Shown here: positions 4,432 to 51,709 of the stretch, piece by piece
Numbering within the stretch: position 1 is the stretch's first letter
How the letters are laid out: each line of letters starts with the position of its first letter
Origin: Tenacibaculum sp. L6
Lineage (GTDB): Bacteria > Bacteroidota > Bacteroidia > Flavobacteriales > Flavobacteriaceae
Reading direction: 5' to 3'
Length of the DNA stretch: 64,000 nt
Assembly (NCBI RefSeq): GCF_028823685.1
Contig: NZ_JAPEHZ010000004.1
Span: 1 to 64,000, forward strand
The notes under the pieces: generated by a model
The model's database searches: none
Seen by the model: only the letters and a program-made list of their open reading frames with translations
Told to the model about the DNA's origin: nothing
Translations under genes and position numbers: made by a program

Positions 4432-6019
4432 AGTTGTCGTATTATTAAGCTTATTGATTCTTTTTTCATGTGCTAAAAGGAAATCAAAATATACAGACAA
4501 ACAAGTTTTCCGTTACAACGAACATTCTAATATTACTTCTCTTGATCCTGCTTTTGCAAAAGACCAGCGAAATATTTGGGCGGTAAATCAATTGTATAAT
4601 GGATTGGTACAATTTGATGATAGTTTGCAAGTAAAACCAGCAATAGCGAAAAAATGGACAATTTCTGAAGATGGAAAGAGGTATCAGTTTGAGTTAAGAA
4701 ATGATGTGCAATTTCACAAACATATTTTATTTGGAAAAGACTCTACAAGAAACGTTGTAGCAAAGGATTTTGAATATTCTTTTAATCGATTACTTGATAA
4801 AAATGTAGCATCTCCAGGTGGTTGGGTATTGCAAAATGTTGCTAATTTTAAAGCTGAAAATGATTCAACTTTTACGATTAATTTAAAGCAACCTTTTCCA
4901 CCTTTTTTAGGGCTGCTGGCTATGAAATATTGCTCGGTTGTACCAAGAGAAGCTATTGATTATTTTGGGAATGAGTTTAGAGCAAATCCGATAGGTACAG
5001 GACCTTTTCATTTTAAACTTTGGGTTGAAAATACAAAGTTGGTATTGAGGAAAAATCCACTCTATTTTGAAAAGGATGAAAATGGAAAACAGCTCCCGTA
5101 TTTAGAAGCAGTAGCAGTTACTTTTTTACCAGATAAACAAAGTGAGTTTTTACAGTTTATTCAAGGAAATATAGATTTTATGAAGAGTTTAGACGCTTCG
5201 TATAAAGATGATATTTTAAATACTGACGGAACCTTAAAAGAGAAATATGCGGATAAGGTACGCATGCAAACAGGAGCATATTTAAATACAGAATATTTAG
5301 GAATTTATCAGGATGGAGAAGAGGAACATCCAACAAAATCAAAACTGATACGACAAGCCATGAATTATGGCTTTGATAAGGAGAAGATGATCAAGTTTTT
5401 GCGAAATGGAATTGGTACACCTGCTACAAGTGGATTTATTCCGAAGGGATTACCGTCTTTTAATAATCAACAAGGATATTCATATCAACCAGAAAAGGCG
5501 AAGAGGTTAGTATCACAATACAAAGAAGAGACAGGAGATGAGAATCCACAAATTACAATTACCACCAATAGTAATTATTTGGATTTATGTGAGTTTATTC
5601 AGCGAGAACTGCAAAAAATAGGTTTGCAAACCAACGTAGATGTAATACCACCATCAACTTTACGTCAAGGTAAGGCGAGTGGTAAGCTTCCTGTTTTTAG
5701 AGCGAGTTGGATTGCTGATTATCCAGATGCAGAAAATTATGTATCCTTATTTTACAGCAAAAACTTTACACCTAACGGACCGAATTATACACATTTTAAA
5801 AACGAACTTTTTGATACTTTATATGAGCAATCTATCAAAGAAATTGATGTGTTAAATCGTCGAAAACTCTATCAACAAATGGATAGCATCATTATTGAAG
5901 AAGCTCCTGTAGTTCCGTTATATTACGATGAGGTGATTCGATTTACGCAAAAAAATGTACACGGTTTAGGTATCAATCCTATTGATTTGTTGGATTTGAG
6001 GAGAGTAAAGAAAAACTAA
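4355..6019 (+). CDS. ABC transporter substrate-binding lipoprotein (OppA/DppA family)
   Basis: The protein belongs to solute-binding family 5, which delivers peptides or related solutes to an ABC importer at the inner membrane. Visible features are a positively charged n-region, a hydrophobic stretch and a lipobox ending LILFSC. The SBP_bac_5 core has EHSNITSLDPAFAKD, KPAIAKKWTISEDGKRYQFE, and the closing half with APVVPLYYDEV. The start is unusual: the only ATG (4355) lies 77 bases inside the preceding gene and gives a long 38-residue leader before Cys. A TTG at 4388 would give a more normal lipoprotein leader. No permease or ATPase gene is adjacent. Confidence 0.88.
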   Translation: MFLLKYLKPFTLQIKPTIKINVRRNKVVVLLSLLILFSCAKRKSKYTDKQVFRYNEHSNITSLDPAFAKDQRNIWAVNQLYNGLVQFDDSLQVKPAIAKKWTISEDGKRYQFELRNDVQFHKHILFGKDSTRNVVAKDFEYSFNRLLDKNVASPGGWVLQNVANFKAENDSTFTINLKQPFPPFLGLLAMKYCSVVPREAIDYFGNEFRANPIGTGPFHFKLWVENTKLVLRKNPLYFEKDENGKQLPYLEAVAVTFLPDKQSEFLQFIQGNIDFMKSLDASYKDDILNTDGTLKEKYADKVRMQTGAYLNTEYLGIYQDGEEEHPTKSKLIRQAMNYGFDKEKMIKFLRNGIGTPATSGFIPKGLPSFNNQQGYSYQPEKAKRLVSQYKEETGDENPQITITTNSNYLDLCEFIQRELQKIGLQTNVDVIPPSTLRQGKASGKLPVFRASWIADYPDAENYVSLFYSKNFTPNGPNYTHFKNELFDTLYEQSIKEIDVLNRRKLYQQMDSIIIEEAPVVPLYYDEVIRFTQKNVHGLGINPIDLLDLRRVKKN

Positions 6020-6748
6020 ACGTTACTTGCTTCATTCCAGTAATAGCTGTCAGGATACACTCGTTCTCCAAATACAGCTGTTCCTACTCGTACAATAGTA
6101 GCACCTTCTTCAATAACAATTTCTAAATCGCCACTCATTCCCATAGAAAGTTCATTCATTTCTACATTGGGGATTTGAAGCGCTTTAATTTCTTCTTGAA
6201 GTTGTTTTAAAAGTTGAAAACATTTTCTAATTTCAGTCGATTCTGAACTTAATAAACCTATTGTCATCAATCCTTTGATATGAATGCTTTTAAATTCGGA
6301 TATTTTTTTAACCAATTCGATAGTCTCTTCTGGTTTTGCGCCAAATTTACTTTCTTCAAAAGACGTGTTTACTTGAATGTATACATCAATTTCTTTTTCT
6401 TCAAAAGTTAAACGTTCATGTAGTTTTTCAGCTATAGAAAATCGATCGATTGATTCTATACAACTAGTCCATTTAAGTGTCTCTTTAATTTTATTACTTT
6501 GTAAATGACCAATAAAATGAACTTCTGGTTTTAGTTCTTTTACAGCATCACATTTTTGTTTTAACTCCTGAACCTTATTTTCCCCGATAAGAGTTTCTCC
6601 TTGAGTAAGAGCGAAGTTAATTCTCTCAGGGGTTACGGTTTTGGTCGCTAATAATAAACGAACATCTTTAGGATTTCTGTTAGCTTTTTCACAGGCAAAT
6701 TGTATTCGCTGATGAATAATGTGTAAGTTATTTTTGAATATTATCCAT
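6016..6748 (-). CDS. yggS: YggS-family PLP homeostasis protein, frameshifted near the start
   Basis: The frame is open from about 6745 down to the stop at 6016 and matches the YggS/PLPBP family throughout. It has the PLP-lysine strand LLLATKTVTPERI, then GENKVQEL, HFIGHLQSNKIK, QVNTSFEESKFG, LMTIG and the hallmark LSMGMSGDLEIVIEEGATIV. However, no ATG, GTG or TTG occurs in this frame before a TTG at 6315, which would remove two thirds of the protein. The expected start, the ATG at 6748, is one base out of frame; adding one A to the five-A run at 6731-6735 would give MDNIQKNNLH joined to the rest. So the gene is either broken, misread by one base, or uses a rare ATA or ATT start. YggS binds PLP and buffers vitamin B6 pools. 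Confidence 0.85.
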
Positions 6749-13025: not shown

Positions 13026-14040
13026 CTACCAGTGTAAACGAGTCATAATAGGATGATGATCAGACAATTCTAAATCGGTATACGTTTTAAAATGGTTGAT
13101 AGTTGTGTTTTTGTCAGCCAAAATAAAGTCGATTCGCATAGGATAGATGTAACGAAAAGATTTACCCATACCCATACCAGCTTCAATAAAAGCATCTTTT
13201 TTATCGGTGGCTAGTTGGTTGTATGCCCATGAATAGGCAGTGTTGTTAAAATCTCCGCAAATTACTTTTTTGCCTTTCCAAGTGGCTTCGTGTTGAGTTA
13301 TCAAATCAACCTGATCAACTTGTTTCAAAAAACCATTTTCTAAGCGTTTAAATAAACGTTCAGAACTTTTTTCGCCAAAATTTTCCTTTTTTCGGATTAA
13401 GTTTTAACGATTCTAAATGTACATTGTATACACGAACGGTGTCTTTCTTTACGACAATATCAACAAAAATAGTGTTGTTGGCACTGCTTTTAAAATTAAG
13501 AGAACCGGAGTTAATGATAGGGTATCTTGAGTAAATCGCTAGCCCGAACTTATTTGTTTTGGTTTTAGTTTTTATGTACTTGTAAGGAAGTTTTATGTCT
13601 AAAAGTTTTGAGTTGTAAAACTCTTGAAAAGCAATGACATCGGGAGTTTTGTCATTAATGAACTTGTATATTTTTTGCTCGGTTGTAGCATCATTTTCAT
13701 GTTTGTAATGATTAAACAAACGAACATTATAACTCATTATTTTTAAATCATTATTAAGTATAATTTCCTTGTTCGTAAACTTAATTAGGGGAGTAGAAAT
13801 AAACCATCCTATAATTAAAACAAGAAATGATAATAAAGTATTCTTATGAATTTTAATCAACCAATAAATAAAAAAGCAAATATTAGTAACAACTAGTAAT
13901 GGAACAGTTAAACTAAAAACTGAAAGAAAAGGAATTGTTTTTGGAGAAATATATGGAAGCGCATACGAAAGCAATAAAACAGTTGCAAAAACTGAATTAA
14001 TGAAAAATAAAAATTTATGAGCTATCGAATACTTTCTCAT
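13026..14040 (-). CDS. Endonuclease/exonuclease/phosphatase-family membrane protein, frameshifted
   Basis: Two adjacent frames together make one EEP-family protein. The N-terminal frame (13360-14040) has three membrane helices, then the first EEP motifs (IMSYNVRLFNHY, DVIAFQEF, YNVHLESLKLNPKK). It then hits a stop. The next frame (13026 to about 13390) carries the remaining motifs CGDFNNTAYSW and LSDHHPIMTRL. An extra base in the GG pair at 13385-13386, within A-rich sequence, explains the break: removing it joins LNPKKENFGEKSSERLFKRL to the second part. The intact form would be a metal-dependent phosphodiesterase facing one side of the membrane. It starts directly after the rhomboid gene with no gap. 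Confidence 0.85.
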
Positions 14041-43488: not shown

Positions 43489-45159
43489 TTAAACAGATTT
43501 AGAATACACATAAAAGTTTTCATCAACTTCAATGGAAGTTCCTTTCATCGTTTTTGTTTGCCAGTCTTCTGTTGGATATAATAATTCAGACTTTCCATTA
43601 ATAGTTATTCGTAAAGGCATGTTGAATCCTTTAACAACATTAGTCCAACGATATTTTAACTTGTTGTTTTCAATATGATATTCAAATTCAGGAATATCAA
43701 CCGTACGTAAGTATTGGTCAAAAATTTTACTTAAATCAATTCCTGATTTTTCAATCATATATTTTTCAATTTCTTGAGTGGTAACTGTTTGATGATAAAA
43801 ATCTGAGTTTAATCCGCGTAAAATTTGTCGCCATTTTTCATCATTATTTACTAGTTGACGAATGGTGTGCAACATGTTAGCTCCTTTGTAATACATGTCG
43901 CCAGAACCTTCGTTATTAACATCATAATGACCTATAATTGGTTTGTCATTTTGAATAGCATCACGAGTTCCTATAACATATTCCGAAGCTGCTTTTTTTC
44001 CGTAGTAATAATCTAAAAATAAGTTTTCAGAATAGGCAGTAAAACTCTCATGAATCCACATGTCCGCAATATCTACATTAGTAATGTTGTTGGCAAACCA
44101 TTCATGACCTGCTTCATGAATTATGATGAAGTCAAACTTTAATCCCCAACCAGTTCCTGATAAATCTCTACCTAAATATCCATTTTTGTATTGGTTTCCG
44201 TAAGTTACAGAACTTTGATGTTCCATTCCTAAATACGGAACTTCTACAAGTTTAAATCCATCTTCATAAAAAGGGTATTTACCAAACCAATGCTCAAAAG
44301 CTTTCATCATTTTAGGAGCATCTTTAAATTGCTCTTTTGCTTTTTCTAAATTGTCTCTAAGTACATAGTAGTTCATATCTAATTCACCATCTTCTCCTTG
44401 ATATTTCTCAGAAAAGTGAACATAATCTCCAATATTCACATTTACTCCGTAGTTATTAATAGGATTGTCTACAAACCAGTGGTATGTAGTTGTGTTGTCA
44501 TTGTGTTGTTCAATATTGCGTAAGCGACCATTAGAAACATCCATTAAGTTTTTAGGTACGCGAACACTAATTGCCATACTATCTACTTCATCGTACATGT
44601 GGTCTTTGTTAGGCCACCAAACACTAGCTCCTAAACCTTGGCAAGAAGTAGCAACAAAATGTTTTCCATTATTATCTTTTTTCCAAGAAAAACCTCCATC
44701 CCAAGGAGCTCTAATCGCTTCTTTAGGATTTCCTTCATAATAAATATCAATTGATTGAATTTCTCCTGTCTTTTGAGAATCTTGTAACTGAATGAAATGC
44801 GCATTTCCTTCAGAAACAACTTTTAATTCTTTATTGTTTTGGGTAACTTTAGTAATCTTTAAAGGAGATTGTAAGTCTATCTGTAAAACTTGATGAGGTT
44901 TTAAAACTTTGTATTGTACGGTGTTTTTTCCTTCAATGAATTTTTTATCAGGATTAACAGTAACATTCAAATGATAGTAGGTTAAGTCCCACCAAGATCT
45001 TTCTGGTGTAATAGATCCACGTAAAGAATCTTGACGTGTAAATGTTTCACTTTTTGAAAATAATGAAGTGCTTTTTTGAGCGGTTGTAGAAGAGCATCCA
45101 GCAATTAAAAAAGCCAAAGATGTCATAAAAACAGATAAGGAAAATGTTTTTTTATACAT
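43489..45159 (-). CDS. M1-family zinc aminopeptidase, lipoprotein
   Basis: The start at 45159 gives MYKKTFSLSVFMTSLAFLIA with the lipobox ending AGCSS; upstream in-frame codons overlap the divergent promoter region. The 556-residue protein has the exopeptidase motif YLGMEHQSS (GxMEN-like, with His for Asn) and the zinc site HEAGHEWFANN, about residues 347-357. The second zinc Glu lies in WIHESFTAYSE. It removes N-terminal residues from peptides outside the inner membrane. It stands alone between the DUF349 terminator and the SDR gene. Confidence 0.93.
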   Translation of the reverse strand: MYKKTFSLSVFMTSLAFLIAGCSSTTAQKSTSLFSKSETFTRQDSLRGSITPERSWWDLTYYHLNVTVNPDKKFIEGKNTVQYKVLKPHQVLQIDLQSPLKITKVTQNNKELKVVSEGNAHFIQLQDSQKTGEIQSIDIYYEGNPKEAIRAPWDGGFSWKKDNNGKHFVATSCQGLGASVWWPNKDHMYDEVDSMAISVRVPKNLMDVSNGRLRNIEQHNDNTTTYHWFVDNPINNYGVNVNIGDYVHFSEKYQGEDGELDMNYYVLRDNLEKAKEQFKDAPKMMKAFEHWFGKYPFYEDGFKLVEVPYLGMEHQSSVTYGNQYKNGYLGRDLSGTGWGLKFDFIIIHEAGHEWFANNITNVDIADMWIHESFTAYSENLFLDYYYGKKAASEYVIGTRDAIQNDKPIIGHYDVNNEGSGDMYYKGANMLHTIRQLVNNDEKWRQILRGLNSDFYHQTVTTQEIEKYMIEKSGIDLSKIFDQYLRTVDIPEFEYHIENNKLKYRWTNVVKGFNMPLRITINGKSELLYPTEDWQTKTMKGTSIEVDENFYVYSKSV

Positions 45160-45250
45160 AGTGTTTGTTCTTGAGAGATAAAACGCTAAGATAAGTTTTA
45201 AAGTTTTTTTATTGGAACTAACTTTAAGATATTTGCTTAAAATTACAAGC

Positions 45251-46051
45251 ATGTCAAAAACAGTTTTCATTACAGGAGCTTCTTCAGGAATAGGGAAATC
45301 TATCGCTTTATATCTGCATGACAAAGGATATACGGTGTTTGGAACAAGCAGGAATCCTGATAAGGTTAATGTCCCATTTCAAATGGTAGCTTTAGATGTT
45401 ACGAATGAAGAGTCGATTAAAAATGCGGTATTAGAAGTAGTAACGAAAGTAGGAAAAATTGATGTGTTGATTAATAATGCAGGAAAAGGAATTACTGGCC
45501 CTATTGAAGATACACCGACAGAAGAAATGAAAGAGAATTTTAATACGAATTTCTTCGGAGTTATTGATGTGATTAAAGCTGTGTTACCTTATATGCGCGA
45601 GCAGAAATCTGGAATGATTATTAACACTACATCGATTGCTGGTTATATGGGATTACCTTTTAGAGGAATTTATTCTTCGAGTAAAGGAGCTTTAGAATTG
45701 GTAACAGAAGCATTGAGTATGGAGGTTAAAAGCTTCGGAATTAAAGTGGTAAATGTAGCTCCAGGTGATTTTGCTACGAATATTGCGGCAGGAAGATATC
45801 ATACGCCAGTTTTTGAAAACTCTGCATACAAAGAAAAATATGCTGAAAACTTAGCGTTGATGGATGCCCATGTTGATTCTGGCGCAGACCCAAAAGTAAT
45901 GGCGAAAGCAATTCATCAAATTATACAAAATAAAAATCCGAAGATTCATTATAAAGTGGGTGGGTTTATGGAGAAATTCTCGATAGTTTTAAAAAGAGTA
46001 TTGCCTGATAAAGTTTACGAAAAACTCTTAATGAATCATTATAAGCTATGA
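45251..46051 (+). CDS. Short-chain dehydrogenase/reductase (SDR)
   Basis: The 266-residue enzyme starts at 45251 (MSKTVFITGASSGIGKS), where the nucleotide motif TGASSGIG begins at residue 8; an in-frame ATG 39 bases upstream is not needed. NNAG is in DVLINNAGKG, the catalytic Ser in TTSIAGYMG, and the YxxxK in YSSSKGALE. The Asn-Arg pair after the first strand (TSRNPDK) favours NADPH. The substrate cannot be determined. Its stop overlaps the next gene by four bases. Confidence 0.93.
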   Translation: MSKTVFITGASSGIGKSIALYLHDKGYTVFGTSRNPDKVNVPFQMVALDVTNEESIKNAVLEVVTKVGKIDVLINNAGKGITGPIEDTPTEEMKENFNTNFFGVIDVIKAVLPYMREQKSGMIINTTSIAGYMGLPFRGIYSSSKGALELVTEALSMEVKSFGIKVVNVAPGDFATNIAAGRYHTPVFENSAYKEKYAENLALMDAHVDSGADPKVMAKAIHQIIQNKNPKIHYKVGGFMEKFSIVLKRVLPDKVYEKLLMNHYKL

Positions 46052-47440: not shown

Positions 47441-47468
47441 CCAACAAAGTTGGTTTTAGTATTTTGTC

Positions 47469-47488
47469 ATTCCCGCGAAAGCGGGAAT
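47469..47488. repeat. ATTCCCGC-GAAA-GCGGGAAT hairpin element
   Basis: ATTCCCGC (47469-47476) and GCGGGAAT (47481-47488) are perfect inverted repeats with a GAAA (GNRA-type) loop. The sequence is GC-rich in AT-rich surroundings and resembles dispersed palindromic repeats seen in many bacterial genomes. It lies in the menD leader, where a false upstream start would translate it as SFPRKRESH. Confidence 0.85.
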
Positions 47489-47505
47489 CTCATTTTTTAA
47501 AAGAT

Positions 47506-49117
47506 ATGTACCCAAAAAAGGAACTCGCACAACTTGTTATTACTGCATGTCATGAATTTGATGTTGATAATGTAGTTATTTCTCCAGGTTCTCGTAATGC
47601 ACCACTTACTGTCGGATTTTCAAATCATCCAAAAATAAATGCATTAAGTGTAGTAGATGAACGTTGTGCTGCTTTTTTTGCGTTAGGAATAGCGCAACAA
47701 ACTCAAAAACCTGTGGTAATTACATGTTCTTCAGGTTCGGCTTTATTAAACTATTATCCAGCAATTGCTGAGGCGTATTATAGTCAAATTCCGTTAATAG
47801 TAATTTCTGCGGATAGACCAAAACATTTAATTGATATTGGTGATGGACAAACCATTCGCCAAGAGAATGTGTTTGAAAATCATATTTTGTTTTCAGCGAA
47901 TTTGATAGAAGAAGATGAGCAGTTAAAAAATAACGCTGACTTATTGACAAAAGCGATGCAAACGGCTATCACTCAAAAAGGGCCAGTTCATATCAATGTT
48001 CCGTTTGATGAGCCTTTATATGAAACAGTAGAAGAACTAATCATCTTTTGATTTAGAAAAATTAGCTTCAATTTGGAATGCTTCAACTAGAAAAATGATT
48101 TTAGTAGGAAGTAGTTTTCCTAATGTTGAATTACAAAAGGTTTTATCGAAGTATGCAGAAGATGATTCCGTAATAATTTTAACTGAAACGACTTCTAATA
48201 TATATCATCCGAAGTTTATTAATAGTATTGATAAGGTAATTTTTCCTGTGTCTTCTGAGGAGTTTGAGGAATTTAAACCTGAAATATTGGTAACTTTAGG
48301 AGGAATGGTGATTTCAAAGAAAATTAAACAGCTCTTACGAAAATCACCGCCAAAACATCATTGGCATATTGATGAGCTTGGAGCAATGGATACTTATCAT
48401 TGTTTGTCAGAATTTGTACAAACTAATTCTGCTGAATTTTTAACAAGCTTGTTTGAAACGAACGAAAATGTTGAAAGCGATTATCAGCAAAAATGGTTAG
48501 AAGAAAAGGGTAGAAGGGCTGAGAAACATGAAGCGTACATGCAAAAATGTGAGTATTCAGATTTAAAAGTCTTTGAAGCAATCTTAGAAAAATTGCCTAA
48601 CGAATCACAGTTGCAAATTAGTAACAGTTCAACGATTCGATATTCTCAATTATTTGATGTGAATTCTACTTTAAGAGTATTTTGTAACAGAGGAACAAGT
48701 GGTATAGATGGTAGTACAAGTACTGCTGTTGGTGCAGCGTTTTCCGATGAGAAACCAACAACGTTTATTACAGGAGATTTAAGCTTCTTTTACGATAGTA
48801 ATGCTTTGTGGAATACAAATATTCCGAAGAATTTTAGAATTATAATATTAAACAATGCAGGAGGTGGCATTTTTAGGTTTATTCCTGGGCCATTGAAGAC
48901 GAATGCGGCAGATTATTTTGAAACTCCTCATAACTTAACGGCAGAACATTTGGCAAAAATGTATGGCTTTGAATATGTTCAGGTAGCAGATTTAAAAGAG
49001 TTGAATGCAGAGTTAAATGAGTTTTATTCAGAAACTGAACAACCAAAAATAATGGAGATATTTACTCCAAAAGAAATAAATGATGTAGTTTTAAAGAACT
49101 ATTTTAAAAACTTATAA
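47506..49117 (+). CDS. menD: SEPHCHC synthase MenD, frameshifted
   Basis: MenD makes 2-succinyl-5-enolpyruvyl-6-hydroxy-3-cyclohexene-1-carboxylate in menaquinone synthesis. The start at 47506 (MYPKKELAQLVITACHEF) avoids the upstream hairpin. Frame 1 contains SPGSRNAPLTV, the thiamine-enzyme Glu in ERC, and GPVHINVPFDEPLYE, then stops at 48049. Frame 2 (48055-49117) continues with the ThDP-binding GTSGIDGSTSTAVG, TGDLSFFYDSNALWN and NNAGGGIFRFIPG. Removing one T from the TTTT at 48046-48049 restores a continuous protein of about 536 residues. So the gene is complete apart from one base. Confidence 0.93.
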
Positions 49118-50869: not shown

Positions 50870-51709
50870 ATGATACAACCAGATTGGAAAGTTGCCAAAG
50901 AATACGAAGATATTACCTATAAAAAATCACATAATGTAGCAAGAATAGCATTTAACAGACCAAATGTGCGTAATGCATTTCGTCCTAAAACTACATCTGA
51001 ACTATTAGATGCTTTCCAAGATGCGCATGAAGACACCAATATTGGAGTTGTATTATTATCAGCAGAAGGACCATCAACCAAAGACGGGGTTTGGAGTTTT
51101 TGCTCTGGAGGAGATCAAAATGCACGTGGACATCAAGGTTATGTAGGAGATGATGGTTACCACCGATTAAATATTTTAGAAGTACAACGTTTAATCCGTT
51201 TTATGCCTAAAGCAGTAATCTGTGTGGTTCCTGGTTGGGCAGTAGGTGGTGGACATAGTTTACATGTAACTTGTGATTTAACGTTAGCAAGTAAAGAGCA
51301 TGCGATTTTTAAACAAACAGATGCCGATGTAACTTCGTTTGATGCAGGGTATGGATCAGCATATTTAGCTAAAATGGTAGGACAAAAGAAAGCGCGTGAA
51401 ATCTTTTTCTTAGGAAGAAATTACTCAGCGCAAGAAGCGTATGAAATGGGAATGGTAAATGCTGTTATTCCTCATGACGAATTAGAGCAAACAGCTTTTG
51501 ATTGGGCACAAGAAATTTTAGCAAAGTCACCAACTTCAATAAAAATGTTAAAGTTTGCAATGAACTTAACAGACGATGGAATGGTTGGACAACAAGTATT
51601 TGCAGGAGAAGTAACACGTTTAGCTTATATGACCGATGAAGCTAAAGAAGGACGTGATGCGTTTTTAGAAAAACGTAAGCCTAACTTCCCAAAAACTTGG
51701 ATACCTTAA
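50870..51709 (+). CDS. menB: 1,4-dihydroxy-2-naphthoyl-CoA synthase
   Basis: MenB closes the naphthoquinone ring in menaquinone synthesis. The 279-residue crotonase-family protein has the oxyanion-hole segments FCSGGDQNARGHQ and VPGWAVGGGHSLH, then TDADVTSFDAGYGSAYLAK, and the MenB-type ending KRKPNFPKTWIP. Length and motifs are standard. menD at 47506 supplies an earlier step; menC, menE, menF and menA are not in the window. It is followed by a dispersed palindromic repeat. Confidence 0.97.
   Translation: MIQPDWKVAKEYEDITYKKSHNVARIAFNRPNVRNAFRPKTTSELLDAFQDAHEDTNIGVVLLSAEGPSTKDGVWSFCSGGDQNARGHQGYVGDDGYHRLNILEVQRLIRFMPKAVICVVPGWAVGGGHSLHVTCDLTLASKEHAIFKQTDADVTSFDAGYGSAYLAKMVGQKKAREIFFLGRNYSAQEAYEMGMVNAVIPHDELEQTAFDWAQEILAKSPTSIKMLKFAMNLTDDGMVGQQVFAGEVTRLAYMTDEAKEGRDAFLEKRKPNFPKTWIP

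Follow-up and report, generated by a model that had tools for sequence, protein, structure and literature searches.

The menD gene in the window (the whole 64,000-nucleotide stretch that was analysed) is split into two reading frames at the linker between domains I and II of the encoded enzyme. We consider it probable that two changes overlap at this point: the loss of about 42 bp that carried a REP-like palindrome, and the gain of one extra base, the latter probably an artefact or very recent. The source genome (G000; the window belongs to its contig C193) comprises 2.55 Mb in 248 contigs with 98.2% completeness, and its nearest named relative found is T. lutimaris.

The menD locus and its interrupted frame

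The features of the locus on the forward strand are as follows.

47466–47490, +, REP-like hairpin with an 8 bp stem and a GAAA loop, situated 15 bp ahead of the ATG of menD
47506–48051, +, menD ORF 1, complete N-terminal ThDP (PYR) domain I, ending with TGA at 48049–48051
48037–48060, +, menD junction with a 10 bp linker, one base over the frame-keeping length, this base being best placed upstream of TTTT
48046–48049, +, TTTT, part of a TCT TTT that is conserved in relatives
48050–49117, +, remainder of the gene, read in the +1 frame and comprising middle domain II and C-terminal ThDP (PP) domain III
48095–49117, +, second menD ORF in the case of a translational restart at ATG 48095, a codon located at the first strand of domain II

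ORF 1 is open from a TTG at 47464, and the conserved ATG is that at 47506. Against the family model TIGR00173, ORF 1 scores 226.6 bits and ORF 2 scores 141.6 bits; summed, the two halves score like the intact MenD of T. lutimaris (367.4 bits), whereas each alone lies under the cut-off of 244.2 bits, so that no one protein encoded here reaches it. Pfam places TPP_enzyme_N on ORF 1 and both TPP_enzyme_M_2 and TPP_enzyme_C on ORF 2, and all three domains of a ThDP enzyme are present. In the sequence of these domains the gene resembles MenD, the SEPHCHC synthase (TIGR00173; structures such as 2x7j and 2jlc), from which it differs in consisting of two ORFs in different frames and in having the linker between domains I and II cut to 10 bp. 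A second copy of menD was considered and rejected, as the second half of the gene matches only once in the genome at E <= 0.001.

The linker measures 48–99 bp, always a multiple of three, in all 77 other menD genes at the genus level (a set that leaves out G073, which gave no DNA match), and the frame between domains I and II is kept in 109 of 109 fetched loci, a set that overlaps the 77. The break in the window is on these grounds not a matter of chance. In the AlphaFold model of T. lutimaris MenD it would fall within a coil at residues 176–196 (mean pLDDT 85.5).

The preliminary description had held that menD is broken by one extra T in the run TTTT and is otherwise a fully conserved enzyme. 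The break is real, the run stands at 48046–48049 and one base is in excess; the run itself is nevertheless not the site of the surplus, since T. lutimaris has TCT TTT at both of the matching places and T. discolor has it at the left one. Nor is the gene conserved apart from one T. The T. lutimaris linker is 51 bp long, so that the junction in the window lacks a net 41 bp, and a linker of 10 bp is not that of an intact gene with one surplus base. Over the two menD halves the window and T. lutimaris are 94% and 91% identical.

Origin of the break

In T. lutimaris the piece that is missing from the window includes GTCATTTCGAGTGAAACAAAACAATCT, which is translated as VISSETKQS. In that species CAATCTTTT occurs twice, 42 bp apart, and flanks the element. 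The left flank in the window is the same as that of T. discolor over 23 nt save for one extra base upstream of TTTT, and the right flank is the same as that of T. lutimaris over 20 nt. The net loss of 41 bp is best read, from this comparison of sequences, as a frame-keeping loss of 42 bp together with one extra base upstream of TTTT.

In the first step, some 42 bp (14 codons) would have been lost from the part of the linker that bears the in-frame palindrome in the closest relatives, probably through slippage or recombination between the short direct repeats that flank the hairpin. This loss alone would have preserved the frame, and sequence of this kind is gained and lost at the same place in the genus. 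In the second step, one extra base at the junction would have shifted the frame such that translation stops at a UGA right after domain I. This base is most likely an error of assembly or consensus, or a very recent mutation, and not a settled state of the species.

A single deletion of 41 bp would account for the break with one event instead of two. It fits T. lutimaris almost as well as does the loss of 42 bp with one added base (6 versus 5 mismatches), and it is for this reason that we infer, and do not observe, two events. With T. discolor as the guide, the flanks favour the loss of 42 bp and one added base (11 versus 6 mismatches).

Pathway context and selection

If the 41 bp deletion were real, the strain would be a recent mutant of the menaquinone pathway or would use external precursors of the quinone. 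The men genes looked at beyond menD were menA, menB, menC and menF, and all four are open, which counts against such a deletion; the match to menC scores 116.6 bits, under its cut-off of 130.55. The intact state of menB claimed in the preliminary description is borne out:

50870–51709, +, menB, intact, 1,4-dihydroxy-2-naphthoyl-CoA synthase, TIGR01929 at 403 bits, over the cut-off

The futalosine route was rejected, as no MqnC in the genome passes the cut-off (one weak match of 35.5 bits versus 428.1).

Branch omega values were computed for 55 genes with one outgroup, T. caenipelagi. Pooled over these genes, the two lineages have the same omega (0.065 in that of the window and 0.062 in T. lutimaris), which is a further point against a strain with a decaying pathway. 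For menD the values are 0.12 in the window lineage and 0.15 in T. lutimaris. Omega is higher in the window lineage than in T. lutimaris for yggS (0.13 versus 0.07) and for the endonuclease/exonuclease/phosphatase (EEP) gene (0.12 versus 0.04), but not for menD. A menD that has long been dead is unlikely, and a long-standing pseudogene was rejected because selection on the gene is not relaxed. In favour of the single deletion are the eight of 183 compared genes that are broken by indels of mixed sizes, as would fit recent gene decay (see below), and the size of the genome, 2.55 Mb against at least 2.9 Mb in three named relatives. Weighing both sides, we regard the single real deletion as unlikely, though it is the best placed of the alternatives.

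Since four men genes are open and selection on menD is unrelaxed, the frameshift is probably an artefact or very recent. This agrees with the preliminary description in so far as an error in the assembly was suggested there.

The palindromic element in the linker of relatives

An in-frame REP-like palindrome lies in the menD linker of the two nearest relatives of the window. Relatives of its 27-mer are dispersed, with 10, 18 and 8 matches in T. lutimaris, T. caenipelagi and T. discolor, respectively, and one in the source genome (up to 2 mismatches), whereas a reversed control pattern gave no match in these four genomes at the same threshold. Across the genus, 45 of 78 genomes have matches to the 27-mer, and the control pattern has one match in total.

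One stem pair is GC in 11, CG in 6, UA in 5 and AU in 4 of 26 distinct copies and is never unpaired; the copies were collected by a pattern that fixes one side of this pair and leaves the other free, and complementary changes consumed allowed mismatches. The covariation score is 0.408, compared with 0.144 in shuffles (none of 500 as high), and 95.1% of cells are paired, above all 500 shuffles. Two of the five stem measures are unremarkable, namely the number of pairs in which both sides have changed (125 of 500 shuffles) and the number of additional pair types (453 of 500). The inner helix of 2 bp is paired in 82.7% of cells. As judged from these copies, the stem of the relatives' element is kept through compensatory change, whether by selection or by copying, as expected of a member of this class.

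As a REP-like palindrome, the element comes close to the CGTC-tagged REPs described by Di Nocera et al. 2013 (PMC3733652). The tag at one end, for which CGTC, TGTC and CCTC are the accepted forms, is present: the copy in T. lutimaris menD is preceded by T, giving TGTC, and an intergenic copy has CGTC. The menD-linker type shares with these REPs the GTC tag and an AT-ended stem, and it differs from the four described families in that its stem is interrupted by an internal loop (5 + 2 bp, instead of a continuous stem of 8–9 bp with a loop of 4–5) and in that it ends with CT and not CCA. The hairpin at 47466–47490 does match family 1, with its 8 bp stem and 4 bp loop. CGTC-tagged REPs are reported from Bacteroidetes among other phyla as dispersed and mostly intergenic repeats that sometimes lie within genes, and it is remarked that an insert placed in a flexible linker may be neutral (PMC3733652).

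The menD element of the relatives can also be compared with the Rickettsia palindromic elements, which are likewise palindromic repeats read in frame within housekeeping proteins (PMC10969869, PMC3733652). It differs in being about 9 codons long, in its recurrent gain and loss at one site in one genus, and in being gone in the window. In the literature searched, a body outside which most subscription papers fall, we met no account of REPs within menD or within genes of Tenacibaculum.

The linker as a hot spot

The REP pattern is found in 20 of the 77 other linkers, read in frame and in every case on the coding strand (up to 4 mismatches), compared with 11 matches in the other 187,660 bp of these loci. 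Behind the REP, several linkers of 78–99 bp have EITSSFTPRNDD or a like sequence, an inverted element of the same kind. In the menD linkers of L137, L138, L145, L154 and L166 a REP is followed by an inverted REP, and both are read in frame. In a menD tree from which the linker was excluded, there are no fewer than four changes of REP state across the 77; this is a quick tree in which 27 of 75 inner branches are starred and 20 are open. The window falls into one group with T. lutimaris and L009 (taken as T. caenipelagi) at an SH-aLRT of 99, and as both of these carry the element, the loss is placed on the branch of the window. In the sampled stretches, one of eight REP matches in T. lutimaris and one of three in T. 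caenipelagi lie inside an ORF of at least 100 codons, and both are in menD.

The hairpin at 47466–47490 sits between the transaldolase gene and menD and is identical in T. lutimaris and L006. In T. caenipelagi and two others its place is taken by another REP-like element. Counting that of the window, a REP-like element lies upstream of menD in 6 of 77 genes with upstream sequence. In another part of the source genome (L185, near 7310) there is no REP, and the T. lutimaris counterpart (L194) has one directly behind a stop codon.

Hairpins number three in 215 kb of the source genome, against 1.2 expected by chance. The scarcity of REPs in this genome could be biological or could reflect loss in assembly; it decides nothing here, as 33 of the 78 genomes of the genus are also without any match to the pattern.

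Function of the split gene

It is conceivable, though improbable, that a chain bearing the PYR domain and a chain bearing the middle and PP domains assemble into a working MenD. The break lies exactly at a domain boundary, both halves are under purifying selection and jointly they retain the whole family score. The ATG that stands at the first strand of domain II (48095) has A at –3 and –6, which in F. johnsoniae are positive determinants of initiation (PMC6847099); it lacks an A at –12 or –13, and its A-rich context belongs to conserved codons and is matched by 12 of 91 ATGs that lie inside other genes. In B. subtilis MenD the active site is built from domain I of one subunit together with domain III of its partner, as would suit a two-chain enzyme, but the linker between domains I and II makes the contact in the dimer of dimers (PMC2914249). 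Furthermore, none of the 77 relatives has a split gene. The case for a working split is thus fair but weak.

A more elaborate version of the same idea would take the MenD linker as a recurrent site of landing and excision for REP-like elements in the genus, at which the loss of the element here made two cistrons and, by gene fission, a working two-chain enzyme. We hold this to be slightly less probable still than the functional split as such.

Frame breaks elsewhere in the genome

About 215 kb of the source genome was compared with syntenic stretches of T. lutimaris, picked by synteny and convenience and not at random; the comparison comprises 183 T. lutimaris ORFs, with 179.7 kb aligned. In this sample 22 of the 183 ORFs were flagged, and eight were judged to be clear internal breaks: menD, EEP, yggS, and genes for a DUF34/NIF3 protein, a serine dehydratase, a cyclophilin-type isomerase, an Rce1-like protease and an AraC-type regulator. 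The family names come from Pfam matches of the open parts. The other 14 were set aside, five with the frame restored inside the gene, seven as differences at gene ends, one as divergent and one as an overlapping, probably spurious ORF. Alignments were viewed for menD, yggS, EEP and seven others (five breaks and two set aside), and the rest were judged by offsets. The broken genes other than menD are:

6016–6748, –, yggS, one surplus base near 6723 in the early part of the gene; the open portion matches Pfam Ala_racemase_N
13026–14040, –, EEP gene, one surplus base near 13386; each of the two parts matches Pfam Exo_endo_phos
Outside the window, DUF34/NIF3, cyclophilin-type isomerase, serine dehydratase, Rce1-like protease and AraC-type regulator, at L182 near 3228, L187 near 4395 and 19590, L188 near 18353 and L183 near 4061

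The broken gene for the Rce1-like protease adjoins menC. In the reverse comparison, 18 of 183 were flagged, consisting of seven mirrors of the same breaks and eleven gene ends or restored frames, and T. lutimaris has no clear internal break among the 183. Its only doubtful one concerns the gene at 43489, at the 5' end. This ORF (43489–45270, –), which we take to be peptidase-like, has its first 32 codons in another frame in T. lutimaris, either as a difference in start site or as a change on the T. lutimaris side.

The net changes of the eight breaks are –41, +1, +1, +2, –20, +4 and –35, with several changes in the remaining one. The preliminary description had proposed systematic homopolymer error in the assembly as the common cause, to be checked by a genome-wide count of homopolymer-associated frameshifts. 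The breaks in yggS and EEP that it named are there, each gene having one extra base relative to T. lutimaris. These are the two +1 changes, both in the window, and they adjoin A runs, as such an error would have it, without being a plain lengthening of the run. Five of the eight breaks are net indels of at least 2 bp and one is multiple, and the surplus base of menD is not within its T run. The count, run on the sample of about 215 kb, returned breaks that are not 1 bp changes in run length. Homopolymer error as a common cause was rejected on the mixed sizes of the indels, and we consider a systematic error of this type very improbable.

The excess of breaks in the source genome is real and has no homopolymer signature. 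It may stem from assembly faults of other kinds or from recent gene decay. Assembly faults are known to inflate counts of pseudogenes (Cooley and Wright 2024, PMC11017572). The source genome resembles the artefactual pseudogenes of draft assemblies in that frame breaks are in excess in a single assembly and selection is not relaxed, and differs from them in its mix of indel sizes. The +4 change is a clean tandem copy of TATG, and breaks such as this resemble ordinary mutations, which counts against reading them as artefacts. No letters other than A, C, G and T occur in the sample from the source genome.

Reading through the junction

Also very improbable, and the least probable of the readings, is ribosomal +1 slippage by which part of the ribosomes would read through at UUU UGA: UUU U would permit full pairing of the P-site tRNA after the slip and leave the next codon in the right frame, but the slip site is absent from all 77 relatives, on which a conserved programmed frameshift was rejected, and the RNA structure at the junction is not unusual (z = –0.77). 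We take the site to resemble that of prfB. A search of the whole window with Rfam at the gathering threshold returned only a tRNA.

Implications

As a caution on the assembly, about one gene in 23 of those compared (8 of 183) is clearly broken, by a cause other than homopolymers. For menD, what was supposed to be a sequencing slip of one base is recast as the turnover of a repeat inside a core enzyme. Should the split prove functional, it would show how the turnover of a repeat can lead to the fission of a gene. Of broader interest is the hot spot of REPs within menD, a fresh case of an already known phenomenon.
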